The notes under the pieces are model-generated. The model saw only the letters and a list, made by a program, of their open reading frames with translations, was not told the DNA's origin and made no database searches. Shown one piece after another: positions 54,614 through 62,844 of a DNA stretch of 64,000 bases. The stretch is from positions 284,305 through 348,304 of the forward strand of contig CASFQA010000002.1 of the NCBI GenBank assembly GCA_949296775.1, in the 5' to 3' direction. Source of the DNA: an uncultured bacterium (GTDB lineage Bacteria; Bacillota_I; Bacilli_A; RFN20; CAG-826). The translations under genes were made by a program, and so were the position numbers. Position 1 is the stretch's first letter; every line of letters starts with the position of its first letter.

Positions 54614-56182
54614 TTAATCTCCGTAAGTCACGTACATCGGCCATTGGACGAGGGTGAAGCGGCCTTCGATTTCGATGTAGGCGGCGTAGGCGTTGAAGGT
54701 GGCGTAGCTTTGGAAGTTGGTATTGGTGAGGGGGGTTCGGGACTCCTGGCTCTGGTTCGGGCCGGCATAGATCCCATAGGCGAAGGGCGACCCATCCGCA
54801 TCGTTATACATTACGAGCAGCCCATCGACCCCGAAGCTATAGGTGGTCAGGCTTTCGGCCGAGTATCCGTTATAGGCGTGGCGGGTCGGCTCGCCGAAAT
54901 CGATTGTGACGTAATAGACCTCGTCATCTATGGTCAGGTAGATGAGGTTTTGGGTTTTGGAGGCTTGCACGTAATCGGCGCGGGTTTGGTAAATTTCCTT
55001 CCCTTCGCAATCATAAAGGGTCAGCTCCTGCCCAGTGAAGTAATAGAAGCAATCGAGCGATTTCGAATAGGTGGCCGAAACCGGCAAGATGGTGATGGGT
55101 TCGAGTTTGTCGTTTAAGATGAGCTTCGACGATTTGTTGTAGTAATTGCCGGAATTCATTTTGACGAAGGAATTGATTTCGCTTGCGCTTATACCCCATT
55201 CCTTAATATCACCGTTTTTATCGATGATCACCGAATCGGCGTCCATCAAGGTCTTGTGGCCGTTGATCTCGCGGATGTCGATGGCGGCCAAAGAATATTC
55301 CCCGTCTTTGTCTTTGAGCAAAGTCGAATAGTTGGTGATCAAGTAGGGCAAATCAATCTCTTTGTATGTCCCTTTCAGGATATCGAGCGAGTAAGACTCG
55401 AGGGCGTATTTGACCCCGTTTTCGTAATAAGCGTAATTCTCGGCTTCCTCGGGCAGGGCGTAGGCTTTCTGGGCGATCAGTTGGCCTCCGACGGTAATGA
55501 CCTCATCGGCGGAGTAGATGGCGTTGGGCAGGCGGAAGGAGGCGATGATCTTGTTGTTTTCGTCAGCCACCATCCATAGATCGCCGCCAAGGTTCAGCTG
55601 GTAGTCCGGGAGGCCGAAGGCTTCTCCGTCGATGAAGCCGGCGAGGGTGTCTTTTCGCCGCCTTTCCCCCTCATAGGTTTTCTCCGGCTGGGCGGAGGTG
55701 TACCAATAGGCGATCTCATTGTCGGTCTCCCCGAATATCGAGAGGGTGTCGTCTTCGACGTAAAATGTCGGGTTGACCATTCCGTAATAGCTGGCGAGCT
55801 TGTTGCCGAAGCCATCGGTGACGGCGGTGTATTTACGGTCAAAGGTGATGAGGAGGAAGCCGGCGAGGGAATTGCCGTAAACGGCGTAGGAGTCGGCATC
55901 GATCTCGGTGGCGATTTCCTTATCGGCGACCAAGGAGTAGAAGCGATAGTCCCCGTTGACGTCGGAATAAACTTCCAAGCCCGAGGAGGAGTCGACCAAC
56001 ATGAATTCGCTCGTGTCGGAGAAAGGGGCGATGGTTTTCAAAGTCGGTTTGTTGTAGCTGACTTTGCTTTCTTCGAGGTTAGCATCGATGATGTCGCTTA
56101 GCCCTTTGCCATATCCTAGGGTAGCCTCGGAACAGCCGGCGAGGGCGAGGATGGGAAGGATGATCCAAACGGATTTTTTCAT
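54614..56182 (-). CDS. Lipoprotein of unknown function, possibly propeller-like
   Basis: A 522-residue protein with a lipoprotein signal (LALAGC, Cys17). The mature part has repeated strand patterns with Tyr/Gly-rich turns (SGLEVYSDVNGDYRFYSLV, VTDGFGNKLASYYG, VYYVTIDFG) about every 45-50 residues, which suggests a beta-propeller, but no family was recognised. No catalytic motif. A ribosome site (TGGAGG) precedes ATG 56182. It is a single-gene unit with its own terminator, and its 5' end lies about 180 bases from the TTGCTCTAA repeats of the divergent AlbA_2 gene. Confidence 0.75.
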   Translation of the reverse strand: MKKSVWIILPILALAGCSEATLGYGKGLSDIIDANLEESKVSYNKPTLKTIAPFSDTSEFMLVDSSSGLEVYSDVNGDYRFYSLVADKEIATEIDADSYAVYGNSLAGFLLITFDRKYTAVTDGFGNKLASYYGMVNPTFYVEDDTLSIFGETDNEIAYWYTSAQPEKTYEGERRRKDTLAGFIDGEAFGLPDYQLNLGGDLWMVADENNKIIASFRLPNAIYSADEVITVGGQLIAQKAYALPEEAENYAYYENGVKYALESYSLDILKGTYKEIDLPYLITNYSTLLKDKDGEYSLAAIDIREINGHKTLMDADSVIIDKNGDIKEWGISASEINSFVKMNSGNYYNKSSKLILNDKLEPITILPVSATYSKSLDCFYYFTGQELTLYDCEGKEIYQTRADYVQASKTQNLIYLTIDDEVYYVTIDFGEPTRHAYNGYSAESLTTYSFGVDGLLVMYNDADGSPFAYGIYAGPNQSQESRTPLTNTNFQSYATFNAYAAYIEIEGRFTLVQWPMYVTYGD

Positions 56183-56363: not shown

Positions 56364-56464
56364 TTGCTCTAAATAGCCAAATAGTTGCTCTAATTTGCTC
56401 TAAGTTGCGTTATTCTAGTAAAAAGTTGCTCTAACTGAATTTTGCATTGATATTGTTGCTCTAA
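56364..56464 (+). repeat. TTGCTCTAA iterons upstream of the AlbA_2 gene
   Basis: Five exact copies of TTGCTCTAA begin at 56364, 56385, 56395, 56426 and 56456, with a degenerate copy (TTGCGTTAT) at 56405. Intervals are 21, 10, 10, 21 and 30 bases, all whole helical turns. The last copy ends 33 bases before ATG 56498. The copy at 56426 could serve as the -35 (TTGCTC, 17 bases, GATATT). Confidence 0.9.
56391..56434 (+). repeat. 44-bp exact direct repeat, left copy
   Basis: Identical over 44 bases to 58011-58054. It contains two TTGCTCTAA copies and the degenerate TTGCGTTAT. The flanking bases differ on both sides. Confidence 0.95.
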
Positions 56465-56497
56465 TCTGGTTTAATTTTGTTAAGAAGGTGGTTAACG

Positions 56498-57952
56498 ATG
56501 GAATCAGCAGAGTTGATTAAACTCGTCGAGCATATTCAGAAAATCCAAACCGAGACGCCCCGCATCGAGGTGAAGGCCGCGGAGGTTAGTTGTCCTACCC
56601 GGCTTTACGATACTTTATCGTCCTTTTCTAACCAAGATAGCGGCGGGGTGATTGTTTTTGGCCTCGACGAGCATAATGGTTTTTCGGTAGCTGGGGTTTA
56701 TGATCCAGCCGACCTCCAAAAGAAAGTTACGGGGCAATGCAATGAAATGCAGCCGCCTGTTCGACCGCTTTTTTCCTTCGCGGAGATTAACGGGAAGACC
56801 GTTGTATCCGCTGAGATCCCCGGGGTCGATTATTCGGAGCGTCCGGTTTTTTACCGAGGCGTCGGGCGGAATAAGGGGTCCTATATTCGCGTTGGGGATT
56901 CCGACGAGCACATGACTGAATTGGAAATCTACTCCTATATTAGTTTCGTTAAACATACCCATGACGATGCTCGGCCGGTCGCGAACGCTGATTTCTCGAT
57001 GCTCAAGGAGTCTTTGCTTGAAACTTTCCTAAATAGGGTCAAAACCGACCGTCCGAATTTAAGCAAAAACGTTTCTGACGAACAGATTTTCAAGTTGTAT
57101 TCAATTGATGTCGATGGTCATCCCAGCTTAGGAGCGTTATTGGCATTCGGGCTTTACCCCCAGTCGCTTTTCCCCCAACTTTGTCTTACCGCGGTAGTGG
57201 TTCCGGGGTTGCATATGGGCGATACCGGGGAATCGGGCGAACGTTTCGTGGACAACGAGAGAATAAATGGTTCGATTGGCGACATCGTCAAAGAAGCGGT
57301 TAACTTTGTTGCCAGAAACTGCCGAAGGATGACTATCATTGATGAAAAAGGAGAGCGCAACGATCGGCTTGAATACCCCCTTACGGCTATTCGGGAAGCG
57401 GTGCTCAACGCTTTGATTCATCGCGATTACAGCAGCTTCAGCGAAAATATTCCCGTAACATTGGAGATGTATAGAGATCGAATTGAGATTCGCAATCCCG
57501 GCGGTCTTTTCGGCCGATCCACCATCGAGGATTTGGGCACGACTAGGCCGCTAAGCCGCAACGCCATGCTAATTAATATGCTTGAGCCTATTTCCGTTTC
57601 CGAGAATCGGTATTCCGGCATCCCTACCATCCGAAAAGAGATAAAAGAGGCTGGTGGCAAACCTCCGGCATTCATTTCTCATAACGGCGAGTTTAAGGTG
57701 ATAATCTATAGCCCCATGGTTGCGAAAGCGGATGAGTCGGATGACCAACCCGATGATTTGGCAAAGCGATTCTACGATATATTGGAATTTTGCTTAACGC
57801 CACGAAGCCGTGAAGAATTGATGCAATTCACCCACTTCAGCCGTTATTATTTGATGGACAAAATCATCAACCCGTTGTTGGGAGCAGGTCTTTTGGCTAT
57901 GACTAGGCCTGATGCCCCTAAAAGCCGTTATCAAAAATATTACAAGGTTTAA
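56498..57952 (+). CDS. AlbA_2-HATPase_c_4 regulator/RecG-like protein
   Basis: A 484-residue protein. Start chosen at ATG 56498, 7 bases after AAGGTGG. The N-terminal AlbA_2 (Schlafen-type nucleic-acid-binding) domain reads RIEVKAAEV, DTLSSFSNQDSGGVIVFGLDE and later YIRVGDSDEHMTE. The middle carries the HATPase_c_4 segment AIREAVLNALIHRDYS with RIEIRNPGGLFG. The C-terminus looks like a winged helix (RSREELMQFTHFSRYYLMDKI, SRYQKYYKV). Such proteins are called RecG-like or transcriptional regulators, with unknown targets. Iterons on both sides, some able to act as -35 elements, suggest that it binds TTGCTCTAA and controls itself and the downstream gene. The same layout would fit a self-contained mobile or selfish unit. 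Confidence 0.88.
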   Translation: MESAELIKLVEHIQKIQTETPRIEVKAAEVSCPTRLYDTLSSFSNQDSGGVIVFGLDEHNGFSVAGVYDPADLQKKVTGQCNEMQPPVRPLFSFAEINGKTVVSAEIPGVDYSERPVFYRGVGRNKGSYIRVGDSDEHMTELEIYSYISFVKHTHDDARPVANADFSMLKESLLETFLNRVKTDRPNLSKNVSDEQIFKLYSIDVDGHPSLGALLAFGLYPQSLFPQLCLTAVVVPGLHMGDTGESGERFVDNERINGSIGDIVKEAVNFVARNCRRMTIIDEKGERNDRLEYPLTAIREAVLNALIHRDYSSFSENIPVTLEMYRDRIEIRNPGGLFGRSTIEDLGTTRPLSRNAMLINMLEPISVSENRYSGIPTIRKEIKEAGGKPPAFISHNGEFKVIIYSPMVAKADESDDQPDDLAKRFYDILEFCLTPRSREELMQFTHFSRYYLMDKIINPLLGAGLLAMTRPDAPKSRYQKYYKV

Positions 57953-58010
57953 CGATCTTCAAAAACATCGGCACAAACAGATGAGGTTGCCCCTTTATAT
58001 TTACTTGCTT

Positions 58011-58054
58011 TAATTTGCTCTAAGTTGCGTTATTCTAGTAAAAAGTTGCTCTAA
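58011..58054 (+). repeat. 44-bp exact direct repeat, right copy
   Basis: Identical to 56391-56434, 1,620 bases away, so the two copies bracket the AlbA_2 gene. Confidence 0.95.
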
Positions 58055-58095
58055 AACGGCAAACAGTTGCTCTAATTTGCTCTAATTTGCGTTAT
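58015..58095 (+). repeat. TTGCTCTAA iterons downstream of the AlbA_2 gene
   Basis: Exact copies begin at 58015, 58046, 58067 and 58077, with degenerate TTGCGTTAT copies at 58025 and 58087. Intervals are 10, 21, 21, 10 and 10 bases. The array ends 24 bases before the -10 box of gene 58132. Confidence 0.9.
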
Positions 58096-58118: not shown

Positions 58119-58124
58119 TATAAT
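58119..58124 (+). promoter_or_regulatory. -10 box of leaderless gene 58132
   Basis: TATAAT, then 7 bases to ATG 58132. No ribosome site. The TTGCTCTAA array lies directly upstream, where a regulator could act. Confidence 0.6.
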
Positions 58125-58131
58125 TACTTCG

Positions 58132-59094
58132 ATGCCGAACTATACCGATTTCCGTGGCCACTTCCTCTCCTGCACATACGAACAGGGCCGTTTGAGGTTA
58201 TTCGATGACGATGAGTTGGCGGCCGACGTTCATCCCCGTTATCTCAAAAAGGTCGACTGCGTCCCCATCCCTCCTTTCCGGCTGGGGGATGAGCTTTACC
58301 TGTTTGATTACGATACAGGGATCGAGTCCATCGATCTAGTAAGTGGCGAAAGCCGCTTCAGCCCGCTTCGCGCAATCCAAGACATCCATCTTTGCAACGA
58401 ATCGTTGGGTTTTGTCTTTAAGCAGACCAAAGCCTTCCTTTTCGACTTCTCCAGACTAAGCATCGTCAAAGAGGTCAAAACATCGTATGACTGGTCGACT
58501 GGCGACGTCTGTTCCGGTTTAGCCATTTACGGTGGCGGGAAGCTGCGTTATATCCCCGACTCGGACATCGAGACGGCCCATCAGTTCAAGCTCCGGCTCA
58601 AAGGCCCTTGGCGTTGCTATGGCGACGAAATGGGCCATCTGACGATCATCGGTTATTTGCATGTCGATAAGCAGTGGCGCTTTGCCGAAATCAATCTTGA
58701 CCTTCATGACGATTCGCATTCATCGATCCTTTTGCCCTCGCCTTGGGGCGATTTCGCGACCCCCGGTTGGGTCGGTTGGTTTTTGAACACCGCCGATAGG
58801 TGTTCGATCAGCCGTCCGGAGTTGACTTACCCTGCGAAGACGATCCCCGACGCTTTCCACGCGTTCGTCTATCTTCTGCATAAATACAACGTCTTCGCCG
58901 CCTTCCGTTCGGTCGATGGGGCGGCTTTGAGGCAGGATTGCCCCGAGCCGATTCTCAAAGAATACGAGAGATTAATCGAGGCGTTCGAGACTTTCCCCGT
59001 CGGGTACTCGGATTATTCGGCTAGGGAAAAATCCATCGTGAGGCAGGGCGAACGTCTGAAACGACTGACGATCGGCTATCTGGCATTCCATTAA
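58132..59094 (+). CDS. Hypothetical protein
   Basis: A 320-residue soluble protein. Start chosen at ATG 58132 (MPNYTDFRGH), directly after the TATAAT box; the frame upstream runs through the repeat array. Strand-rich with many aromatic residues (ELYLFDYDTGIESIDLVSG, KAFLFDFSRLSIVKEV), possibly a small propeller in the first 200 residues, then a helical tail (EPILKEYERLIEAFETF). No family recognised. Its promoter region carries the same iterons as the AlbA_2 gene, so it is the best candidate for a regulated target of that protein. Confidence 0.65.
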   Translation: MPNYTDFRGHFLSCTYEQGRLRLFDDDELAADVHPRYLKKVDCVPIPPFRLGDELYLFDYDTGIESIDLVSGESRFSPLRAIQDIHLCNESLGFVFKQTKAFLFDFSRLSIVKEVKTSYDWSTGDVCSGLAIYGGGKLRYIPDSDIETAHQFKLRLKGPWRCYGDEMGHLTIIGYLHVDKQWRFAEINLDLHDDSHSSILLPSPWGDFATPGWVGWFLNTADRCSISRPELTYPAKTIPDAFHAFVYLLHKYNVFAAFRSVDGAALRQDCPEPILKEYERLIEAFETFPVGYSDYSAREKSIVRQGERLKRLTIGYLAFH

Positions 59095-59308: not shown

Positions 59309-59333
59309 CATTTGTTGGAGTATGATTTTCCCG

Positions 59334-60863
59334 ATGAAGAAACACCTCGCTTTTTTATTCTTGCCCTTCTTGGTCCTAGGGTTAGCCAGCTGCAATATCT
59401 ATGACCTAGTCGACCGGACCTCCGGCAATTCTTTCGTTCCGCCGCTCACCAGCGACGGCCATTATGTCCTAGAAAACCCAACCCCTTTCACCTACCGGGA
59501 CCTCCAGCTTTCGGCCGAGATGGACGCTTTGCCCTCGACTGGGGAATACACCGTTTTGGTCTTGCCGATCGAGATGAGCGACTTCCCCTTCGCTTCCTCG
59601 GCCATGACCGACTTAGACACCGTCCTCAATTCGCCGGATGGCACCTCGTATTGGGAGTCGCTTTCGAGCTTCTACTACAAGTCGAGCTATGGTCAATTGA
59701 AGGTCGACTTCGAGATCGCCCCCATCTATCAATGCGGGATGACCGCCAGTCAGGCTTATAGCAAATACGGGACCAACATCCAATACCCGGATAACGGCAT
59801 CACCCTGATCGACGCGGCCTTGAAAAACTACAAGAAGGACCATCAGACCACCGGTTTCGACCGCGCACACAACGGCTGGATCGATGGGATCGTCGCCGTC
59901 TACTCCTGCCCCGACTCCCAATCCTACGACTACCCTTTCAACGATTTGACCAACTTCTATTGGGCCTATACCTACTGGGCTCAGCAGGACCCGAACCCCA
60001 TCTCCCCGTCCTTCAACCTTTATTTTTGGCTCTCGATCGACTTCATCTACACCCCGGACGGGGAGCTTGACGCCCATACCCTCATCCATGAGTTCGGCCA
60101 TATGCTCGGGCTTGATGACTATTACCCCTCCAGCACCTCAAAATCCCCGTATAATGCCTTCTTCCCCGTCGGTTGGCTCGATATGATGGATGGGAACGTC
60201 CTTGACCACAACGCTTTCTCGAAGATGGCGCTCGGCTGGATCAAGCCGACCGTCGTCGCCGATGAATGCACGGTTGAGCTCAAGCCTTTGCAAGACGGGG
60301 CCAACGCCATCGTCTTGCCTAGCGCCTCCTGGAACGGCTCGGCCTTCGATGAGTATCTGATCTTCGAACTCTACACCCCGACCGGATTGAATGAGCTCGA
60401 TAGCACCGTCCAATACACCGGGCGGCCGATCGGGTTCCAGCACCCCGGGGTCAAGATACTCCATGTCGACGCCAGGGTGATGGAGATTACCCTGACTTCT
60501 TCGGGCAAAGGAAGCGGCGAATACCTCGAGGGCACGACCCTTAACCCCTCCAGAACCTCCCAATATCTCCGTTATTACCAAGTGGGGGCGACCAATTCCC
60601 AAAAGATCAGCTCCTACGCTGAGGATAAATACTCGCTTGTTTCCTTGATTGACGCCTCCTCCCCTTCCGTCAACCCCTTTTACCGGCAGGGCAACGCCGA
60701 CGATGGATCGCTTTTCCATGCCGGGGACACCTTCTCCTTGCAAGATTATTCGGTCTATTTCCCCGAGGGCACGACCCTCAATAACGGGGAGGAGCTGAAC
60801 TATTCGGTCTCCATCTCTTATTGCGGCTATGACAAAGCCACCCTCACCTTCACCAAATTATGA
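59334..60863 (+). CDS. M6-like zinc metalloprotease lipoprotein
   Basis: A 509-residue lipoprotein (LVLGLASC). Start taken at ATG 59334 (MKKHL); ATG 59322 lies too close to GGAG. After a conserved GEYTVLVLPIEMSDFPF strand it carries the zinc site HEFGHMLGLDDYY with His252, Glu253, His256 and the downstream Asp of GLDD, and a family-typical WLDMMDGNV turn. This is the M6 (immune inhibitor A-like) pattern: a secreted or surface-anchored endopeptidase. The C-terminal region ends with SLFHAGDTFSLQDY and NNGEELNYSVSIS, shared with its two downstream paralogs. First of three tandem genes. Confidence 0.88.
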   Translation: MKKHLAFLFLPFLVLGLASCNIYDLVDRTSGNSFVPPLTSDGHYVLENPTPFTYRDLQLSAEMDALPSTGEYTVLVLPIEMSDFPFASSAMTDLDTVLNSPDGTSYWESLSSFYYKSSYGQLKVDFEIAPIYQCGMTASQAYSKYGTNIQYPDNGITLIDAALKNYKKDHQTTGFDRAHNGWIDGIVAVYSCPDSQSYDYPFNDLTNFYWAYTYWAQQDPNPISPSFNLYFWLSIDFIYTPDGELDAHTLIHEFGHMLGLDDYYPSSTSKSPYNAFFPVGWLDMMDGNVLDHNAFSKMALGWIKPTVVADECTVELKPLQDGANAIVLPSASWNGSAFDEYLIFELYTPTGLNELDSTVQYTGRPIGFQHPGVKILHVDARVMEITLTSSGKGSGEYLEGTTLNPSRTSQYLRYYQVGATNSQKISSYAEDKYSLVSLIDASSPSVNPFYRQGNADDGSLFHAGDTFSLQDYSVYFPEGTTLNNGEELNYSVSISYCGYDKATLTFTKL

Positions 60864-61294
60864 AAAAGACCCTCTTCCTCTTCGCCATCTGCCTAACTTC
60901 GCTCTCTTCCTGCGCCTCGCGCCGCCTTTCCTCCTCTTCTAGCGAATCCGCCATCATCGACGAGTTGGAGGGGCAGGAGGTTAGCAAATATGGCTTCCAG
61001 GATCTTAACGACACCCAATACGCGGATTCGTTGCCGACTAAGGGCCGATATTCGGTTTTGGTGCTGCCGATCGAATTCTACCGGTTCGCCGAGAGGAAGC
61101 TGACGGATTTGGATAAGACGCTAAACGCCGATAACGACAGCCTGTTCCATGCCGGCGATTGCTTTGATATCGATACTTACCGTAATTACTTCCCGGATAA
61201 GGGGAGATTCAATAATGAGGAGGAATTCCCTTACCTCATCGACGTCCTCTCCGTCAGCGAAAAATCGGCCGTTATTCAAATCAAGGAGGTTTAA
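60860..61294 (+). CDS. Mini-paralog of the M6 metalloprotease, catalytic domain deleted
   Basis: A 144-residue lipoprotein (LSSC signal, Ser-rich linker). It joins in one frame the N-terminal element of the protease family (PTKGRYSVLVLPIEFYRFAE, KLTDLDKTLN) to the C-terminal element (NDSLFHAGDCFDIDTYRNYF, RFNNEEEFPYLIDVLSV). About 360 residues, including the HExxH zinc site, are missing between them compared with its neighbours. The join lies at AACGCCGA-like sequence present at the matching site of the upstream gene, which suggests an old deletion between short homologies. The frame and lipobox are intact, so it may be expressed, perhaps as a binding or regulatory protein. Its ATG overlaps the upstream stop by 4 bases. 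Confidence 0.8.
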   Translation: MKKTLFLFAICLTSLSSCASRRLSSSSSESAIIDELEGQEVSKYGFQDLNDTQYADSLPTKGRYSVLVLPIEFYRFAERKLTDLDKTLNADNDSLFHAGDCFDIDTYRNYFPDKGRFNNEEEFPYLIDVLSVSEKSAVIQIKEV

Positions 61295-61296
61295 CC

Positions 61297-62844
61297 ATGA
61301 AGAAAACGCCTTTGCTTTTATCCTTATTGCTGCTAGTCGGCTGCAGATCCACCTCGAGCAGCAGTAGCTCGTCCACCTCGAGCAGCAGCAGCAGCTCGCC
61401 GATCGAATTGAATGGCTTTCATAAAGCCGAATCGATCAATGAGAACATGACCTTGTTCGACGTCTATTCCTCCCAATCGACTCCGAACCTTCCCTCGATC
61501 GGGGAATACGACATCTTGGTCCTGCCGATCGAGATCGAGGGTTATCCTTTCGCCGATGAGGATTTGCAGACGATAGAGATCGCCACCACCGGCAGCGCCG
61601 AGGAGACCGGTTATTGGGAAACTCTCCCCTCCTATTACGAGAAATCCAGTTATGGGGCCTTGCGGATCAATTGCGAGGTCGCCCCGGTCGTCAAGATCGA
61701 CAAGACCCCGCAAGAACTGCTCGATTCGACCAGCGACCCGGCGGCTTATTGCCTGAATGTGGGACTGAACCAATATAAAGGGGACGTCAAGAAATTCGAC
61801 CATAACGGGGACGGGTTGATCGACGCCACGATTATGATTTATTCCTGCCCGGATGCCGGCCATTCGCGGGAAATCGCCTCCATCGACCCCTACGCCGATT
61901 ATTTTTGGGCTTATACCTTTTTCAACGGCGAGGCTTTGCCCGACGCCGATCCCGACGATCCGGTCGGCTTCTATTATTTCTGGTCCTCCCTCGATTTCTT
62001 CCAAGATGCCGGGGAAGGGAAAATCGATTGCCATACCATCATCCATGAGTTCGGGCATATCCTCGGGGCCGACGATTATTACGATGCTGATTTCGCCGTC
62101 AACGGCTACGACAATCCGGCCGGGGGATCGATCATGATGGATTGCAACGTCGGCGACATGGACATGGCCACCAAATTGCTTTATGGCTGGAGCAAGCCTT
62201 ATGTGGTGAGCGAGGATTCCACCCTCACCATCAAGCCCTCCGAGAGCAGCGGGGATTGCATCCTCATCGCCGATAATTGGAACGGGACCGGGTTCGACGA
62301 ATTCCTTTTGCTCGAGCTATATACCCCGACCGGGCTTAACGAGCTTGACTCCAAGCAAGCCTATCCCGATTTGGGGGCGACCCTGCCGAGCGAGGCCGGG
62401 GTTAAGCTTTGGCACGTCGATAACCGGCTGGTGTATGGCCCGGGGTTCTTGGATGGGATGAACTTCCAAGACGTCGCCTATTTGACCGATGAGGAAACCG
62501 CTTCCGGAGAATACAACAAGTATAGCCTAATCGACGGTAGGCTTTATGCCAACGGCTTAGCCATCGCCGCCTCCAATTCCGATTACGCCCGTTGCGTTTC
62601 CTTGCTTGGCCAAGACATCTTCTCCTTGCAGCTTATCCAAGCCGGCGGAGAATATACTTTCGATCGGGCTGACGTCAGCACCGCGAACGCCGACCTCTTC
62701 CATACCGGCGACACCTTTGATATGGAGGGGAGCGAGTTCTTTCCTTCCGGCAAGCTGAACAATGGGGCGAGCCTGCCCATTTCCATACTCTTCGATTCGG
62801 TTAGCGAAAAGGAAGCGAAGATAACCATCACCTACCATGAGTAA
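61297..62844 (+). CDS. M6-like zinc metalloprotease lipoprotein, second full-length copy
   Basis: A 515-residue lipoprotein (LLVGC, Cys16) with a long Ser/Thr run as linker (residues 18-35), then GEYDILVLPIEIEGYPFADED and the zinc site HEFGHILGADDYYD (His250, Glu251, His254, Asp following), and a MMDCNVGDMDM turn. It shares its N- and C-terminal elements with the two upstream paralogs. KKFDHNGDGLIDA is an EF-hand-like Ca2+ loop, also present in degraded form (DRAHNGWIDG) in the first copy. Ribosome site AAGGAGG. A surface peptidase, substrate unknown; the array may act on host or diet proteins. Confidence 0.88.
   Translation: MKKTPLLLSLLLLVGCRSTSSSSSSSTSSSSSSSPIELNGFHKAESINENMTLFDVYSSQSTPNLPSIGEYDILVLPIEIEGYPFADEDLQTIEIATTGSAEETGYWETLPSYYEKSSYGALRINCEVAPVVKIDKTPQELLDSTSDPAAYCLNVGLNQYKGDVKKFDHNGDGLIDATIMIYSCPDAGHSREIASIDPYADYFWAYTFFNGEALPDADPDDPVGFYYFWSSLDFFQDAGEGKIDCHTIIHEFGHILGADDYYDADFAVNGYDNPAGGSIMMDCNVGDMDMATKLLYGWSKPYVVSEDSTLTIKPSESSGDCILIADNWNGTGFDEFLLLELYTPTGLNELDSKQAYPDLGATLPSEAGVKLWHVDNRLVYGPGFLDGMNFQDVAYLTDEETASGEYNKYSLIDGRLYANGLAIAASNSDYARCVSLLGQDIFSLQLIQAGGEYTFDRADVSTANADLFHTGDTFDMEGSEFFPSGKLNNGASLPISILFDSVSEKEAKITITYHE

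Follow-up and report, generated by a model that had tools for sequence, protein, structure and literature searches.

The gene at position 56498 of the 64-kb stretch of DNA analysed here (the window) is flanked on both sides by arrays of a short repeat, TTGCTCTAA, whose copies recur at helical spacing. Our analysis suggests that it is a stand-alone bacterial Schlafen gene which represses itself through an array of its own phased unit, a model to which we assign a probability of roughly two in three. The phasing of the copies, their family-wide occurrence, the co-variation of repeat unit and protein, the overlap of the arrays with promoters and four gene losses that left a single array were all observed in the sequences compared; DNA binding, repression, RNase activity and a trigger are inferred.

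A recount bore out the nine exact and three degenerate copies given in the preliminary description, and its start-to-start intervals proved right (21, 10, 10, 21 and 30 bp in the left array; 10, 21, 21, 10 and 10 bp in the right one), the copies being helically spaced on both sides of the gene. All exact copies lie on the + strand (Table 1). The degenerate ones (TTGCGTTAT) carry three mismatches and keep the register, and the copy at 58005 carries one mismatch. No further exact TTGCTCTAA was present on either strand of the window, and the whole 1.52-Mb genome contains 19, i.e. the nine array copies and ten scattered singles. The two arrays share a 53-bp block, which suggests that they evolve in concert, but their whole-array identity does not: the left and right arrays are 81–85% identical and arrays of different species 77–82%, and concerted evolution is therefore not claimed.

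Table 1. Features of the gene 56498 region (positions in the window).
Feature	Position	Strand	Details
Left (upstream) phased array	56364..56475	+	exact copies at 56364, 56385, 56395, 56426, 56456; degenerate copy at 56405
53-bp block	56382..56434	+	repeated at 58002-58054 with 96% identity
Predicted sigma-70-type promoter of gene 56498	56447..56475	+	TTGATA (56447-56452), 17 bp, TTTAAT (56470-56475); consensus scoring only
Predicted bacterial Schlafen gene (56498)	56498..57952	+	484 aa: SLFN_AlbA_2 19-140, GHKL HATPase_c_4 319-403, Fic-like_C winged helix 436-481
Codons 19 to 58	56552..56671	+	putative Schlafen RNase triad E19, E24, E58
C-terminal winged helix, residues 426-484	57773..57949	+	predicts the repeat unit better than any other domain
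Right (downstream) phased array	58005..58095	+	exact copies at 58015, 58046, 58067, 58077; one-mismatch copy at 58005; degenerate copies at 58025, 58087
Orphan ORF (58132)	58132..59094	+	320 aa; TATAAT at 58119-58124; probably not a dedicated target

The product of gene 56498 is, by domain content and predicted fold, a bacterial Schlafen, related to the antiviral Schlafen proteins, that combines an RNase-like AlbA_2 lobe with a GHKL ATPase and a winged helix. All three domains scored above curated cut-offs (SLFN_AlbA_2, Pfam PF04326, 45.8 bits against a cut-off of 25.3; HATPase_c_4, PF13749, 78.4 bits; Fic-like_C, 29.1 bits); NCBIfam has no name for the protein. In an AlphaFold2 model built from 84 sequences (mean pLDDT 94.5), residues 1–123 resemble the active-site lobe of Schlafen 13 (5yd0 residues 190–324; Z 9.3, rmsd 3.1 over 113 residues), residues from about 220 to 412 resemble GHKL ATPases (SpoIIAB, Z 10.3; histidine kinases as well), and residues 420–484 match the winged helix of the Fic protein 4rgl (Z 10.2, rmsd 2.2 over 65 residues). 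The cleavage of tRNA by Schlafen 13 requires E205 and E210, and D248 contributes to it (PMC5862951). A profile alignment placed E19, E24 and E58 at these positions of rat SLFN13, the third residue being E rather than D. Among the array-bearing homologues, E19 was conserved in 48/49, E24 in 47/49 and an acidic residue at position 58 in 38/49; the N-box residues E300 and N304 were each present in 49/49. The protein was found to have the sequence and structure features of a bacterial Schlafen RNase (AlbA_2 domain, acidic triad, GHKL domain with N-box, C-terminal winged helix), and its RNA cleavage and anti-phage activity are putative. The earlier label of an AlbA_2 regulator was incomplete: the ATPase-like domain and the winged helix hold, but the N-terminal domain corresponds to the catalytic lobe of Schlafen RNases, which makes a self-controlled effector more likely than a mere regulator.

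Profile comparison also matched the AlbA_2 domain closely to a recently deposited PDB entry, 9ylu (CbCash). The 1.5-Mb genome G000 has nine PF13749 matches; eight HATPase_c_4 genes or gene fragments of the Schlafen family exceed the cut-off, a heavy load, and up to 11 P0001 matches were found in relatives.

The homologue set came from 145 related genomes, named GTDB genomes and viral contigs; many of the genomes are incomplete assemblies, and the first ATG of each frame was taken as the start codon. An alignment spanning the whole family proved too divergent for scanning contigs and a narrower one was used, and a plain 8-mer count, underpowered for short arrays, was replaced by lag and Poisson scores. 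The check suggested in the preliminary description, a search for phased repeats beside each AlbA_2-HATPase_c_4 gene, succeeded: at least two repeat seeds were detected in the 200 bp upstream of 73% of 48 non-redundant same-order homologues, compared with 15% of 93 control regions, and downstream repeats were present in 42% of these homologues and 16% of controls. The repeat lags of the 48 homologues, which had not been selected for phasing, cluster at 9–12, 20–24, 30–33 and 40–43 bp, with a periodicity peak at 10.25–10.5 bp (R 0.45, versus 0.15 for controls), and identical lag peaks were observed in 102 homologues from other genomes and viral contigs. A figure of 97% in register was kept out of the evidence, as the genes behind it were partly selected for phasing. 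By the Poisson score with shuffles, p 1/61 was reached by 31/48 homologues of the same order and 20/72 from other genomes, and none of the 26 viral-contig homologues had an array.

Arrays were undetected in about a third of the own-order homologues and in most distant ones; since many homologues, including all 26 viral ones, lack an array, the Schlafen-type fold does not need it. On a FastTree tree the array state changed 17 times, compared with 40.8 times with shuffled labels, which identifies the array as a clade-wise trait that is missing in large parts of the family. Among 50 array-bearing genes, the array was upstream only in 41, and arrays of the same unit were located on both sides in nine (control 0.5%). 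The neighbours of these genes are mostly housekeeping genes. A defence-island context was considered as a feature of the array class and rejected: few defence genes lie nearby (AbiEi, type I restriction, PDC-S), and defence neighbours are no rarer beside homologues without an array.

As judged from the loci compared, the repeat unit depends on the protein and not on the host, and its best predictor is the winged helix. The unit differs between paralogues in one genome and between genera: TTGCTCTAA was found in the window genome and in G009, and other loci carry TTTTCGTAA, TTCCCGCCA, GTGGACAAG, ACCTAGAAA, CGAAATGTT, TTGAAGT or others. Pairs of loci sharing a unit mainly encode similar proteins (AUC 0.96; Mantel 0 of 500), and the orientation of the unit relative to the gene was the same in 62 such pairs and reversed in five. 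The unit resembling TTGAAGT tracks one protein clade across Bacilli, Clostridia, Selenomonas and two Treponema genomes. With the other domains as covariates, the highest partial correlation with the unit was obtained for the winged helix (0.177, p 0.0005), followed by AlbA_2 (0.116, p 0.0015), and none was obtained for the middle and ATPase domains; because AlbA_2 also predicts the unit, the role of the winged helix as the reader domain is provisional. Such co-variation is to be expected of a protein-DNA recognition pair, in which the protein would bind the array of its own gene. The helically phased, protein-specific operator proposed in the preliminary description can accordingly be extended, through the repeat survey and this co-variation, to a putative operator that is a family-wide feature. 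At five loci (L229, L230, L231, L232 and L224) the TTGAAGT-type arrays have a short palindromic head (TTGAAGTTACTTCAA or TTGAAATAAGTTCAA) in front of their direct copies.

At gene 56498, the copy at 56456 lies inside the spacer of the consensus-matched promoter. An earlier proposal, in which the left copy at 56426 serves as a −35 (TTGCTC, 17 bp, GATATT), is possible but weaker than TTGATA-17-TTTAAT. A copy overlaps the −35 to −10 region of consensus-matched promoters in 39 of the 50 array-bearing genes, against 27 expected from random placement. Such genes have room for a promoter of their own and are located inside an operon in 2% of cases versus 20%. Specific repeated sites, as expected of an autorepressor, are present in the promoter regions of the array-bearing genes themselves, and the position of the copies in or beside the gene's own promoter makes autorepression the best model; the arrangement of a stand-alone gene with an array over its promoter points to it as well. 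It is possible that the array-bound protein activates the gene instead.

According to the autorepression model, the C-terminal winged helix would bind its own 9-bp unit and, since copies ~10.5 bp apart all face one side of the helix, several subunits would bind next to each other over the promoter of the gene. The RNase-like effector would be kept low until a signal releases repression, perhaps through the GHKL ATPase domain. As each paralogue has its own unit, the paralogues should not cross-regulate. At a minority of loci, including gene 56498, a second array copy of the same orientation behind the gene would permit recombination between the two copies, which would delete the gene and leave a solo array.

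The TTGCTCTAA tandem pattern accompanies the gene in G000 and G009, and was found at one further place in G028 and as one two-copy match each in G043 and G068. At the G028 site, both flanks of the G009 locus and one array are present, and the gene is absent. The gene is also absent from the L042-type locus of G028 (one array; flanks 95.6 and 96.8% identical, overlap 57 bp), the L035-type locus (single array, matching flanks) and the L040-type locus (a 67-bp array that matches both G009 arrays). At each of these four sites one array is placed between matching flanks where G009 has array-gene-array. For the TTGCTCTAA and L042 types, the outgroup G000 still has the gene in place, and the most economical interpretation is therefore loss in the sister genome G028. 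A fifth gene, L037, is preceded by an array but not followed by one; G028 retains this array without the gene. Deletion between direct repeats is enough to account for gene loss with a solo array left behind. Arrays without the gene, named in the preliminary description as an observation that would speak against its model, do literally occur, but those of G028 are footprints of gene loss, and the link between gene and array is thus not refuted.

The same loci can be read differently, with the arrays acting mainly as recombination ends: a gene plus one array would be a single-gene cassette entering and leaving resident arrays, and solo arrays would be vacant sites. The same-orientation arrays on both sides of the gene and the four G028 sites agree with this, as do solo L034/L042-type arrays at unrelated places in G010, G013, G022 and G026, near which no Schlafen homologue was found in the 6.5–8 kb examined. 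A site beside a CNNM/CBS hemolysin-like gene (L242 2996–3092, L241 3326–4913) carries a Schlafen paralogue in G009 and the array of this paralogue alone in G028, whereas the solo array found there in G013 belongs to another unit type, an apparent re-use of the site that also fits a cassette. We nevertheless consider this reading unlikely. Most array-bearing genes (41/50) have an upstream array only, and plain deletion explains the two G028 cases in which the outgroup has the gene in place. The gene-array unit consists of one gene with no recombinase within; no recombinase, circle or insertion event was observed, and the losses seen are matched by no polarised insertion. Moreover, promoter overlap and unit-protein co-variation are left unexplained. 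A broader version, in which the operator array of a Schlafen-type protein is the attachment site of a single-gene mobile unit and cassettes with different immune-like effectors move out of and into the arrays of various genomes, solo arrays being vacant sites, is likewise doubtful.

The self-regulating switch of the preliminary description stood in part: the position of the arrays fits autoregulation, but its supposed main output, gene 58132 controlled through the right array, was unsupported, and as a whole it is improbable. The right array does end about 37 bp short of the 58132 ATG. However, this gene is an orphan with no relatives in 60 related genomes and no family in Pfam, NCBIfam or PADLOC, and the DNA of its region is missing from relatives except for a 66-bp tail. 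The next gene is convergent in 5/9 loci with a same-unit downstream array, which argues against a general role of the right array as operator of the gene that follows; in G009 and G028 the gene beyond the right array is a different one, encoding a lipoprotein. The only good −10 of 58132, TATAAT, sits 7 bp before its ATG. Gene 58132 is thus probably not a dedicated target of the array.

The spacing between this −10 and the ATG suggests a leaderless transcript or a wrongly assigned start. The lipoprotein gene is located to the left of the array in the window (54614–56182) and to its right in G009 and G028 (L194/L195), which reflects either differential loss of duplicated genes or movement of the unit past the lipoprotein gene. 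Tandem lipoprotein genes with a HEFGH zinc-peptidase-like motif (59322–60863 and 61297–62844) are separated by a short fragment (region 59322–62844).

Neutral tandem repeats produced by slippage are very improbable, even though some arrays are near-tandem with 10–12 bp units: units remain in register at 20, 30 or 40 bp across unrelated spacers, the unit is conserved between host phyla and the spacers are not, the unit depends on the protein and not the genome, and array frequencies at control genes and homologues (15% versus 73%) are not equal.

Several known systems can be compared with the proposed autorepression. The COG2865 'predicted transcriptional regulators' and RecG-related proteins (3lmm, 2kyy) belong to the same family by sequence and fold. 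Such COG2865/AlbA_2-HATPase proteins occur widely and have long been labelled regulators or RecG-like; to our knowledge, no operator or target has been defined for them, whereas a specific phased operator is proposed here for a large part of the family. Plasmid Rep iterons and autorepressed toxin-antitoxin operators are direct, helically spaced sites beside the gene of the binding protein and serve in autoregulation. The arrays resemble them as repeated, phased sites adjoining the gene of the proposed binding protein; unlike them, they have no replication origin or antitoxin partner, each paralogue in one genome has a private unit, and the arrays are sometimes two-sided. In solo LTRs, recombination between flanking direct repeats removes a gene and leaves one repeat, just as Schlafen loss leaves one array; here, in contrast, there is no transposition machinery and the repeats are operator-like. 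No published description of Schlafen-gene arrays was found in the open literature searched. Bacterial Schlafen RNases with a minimal histidine kinase and wHTH are described as BREX-linked backup effectors (PMC12839542). These share the Schlafen RNase lobe, GHKL ATPase and winged helix, whereas the array-bearing genes are solitary, with mostly housekeeping neighbours; neither 'autoregulation' nor 'iteron' appears in that paper.

The dozens of putative natural protein-site pairs would provide a ready recognition code for the Schlafen winged helix, and solo arrays are a sequence tag for the recent loss of Schlafen genes. The arrays also illustrate a way in which a potentially toxic RNase effector may be silenced.
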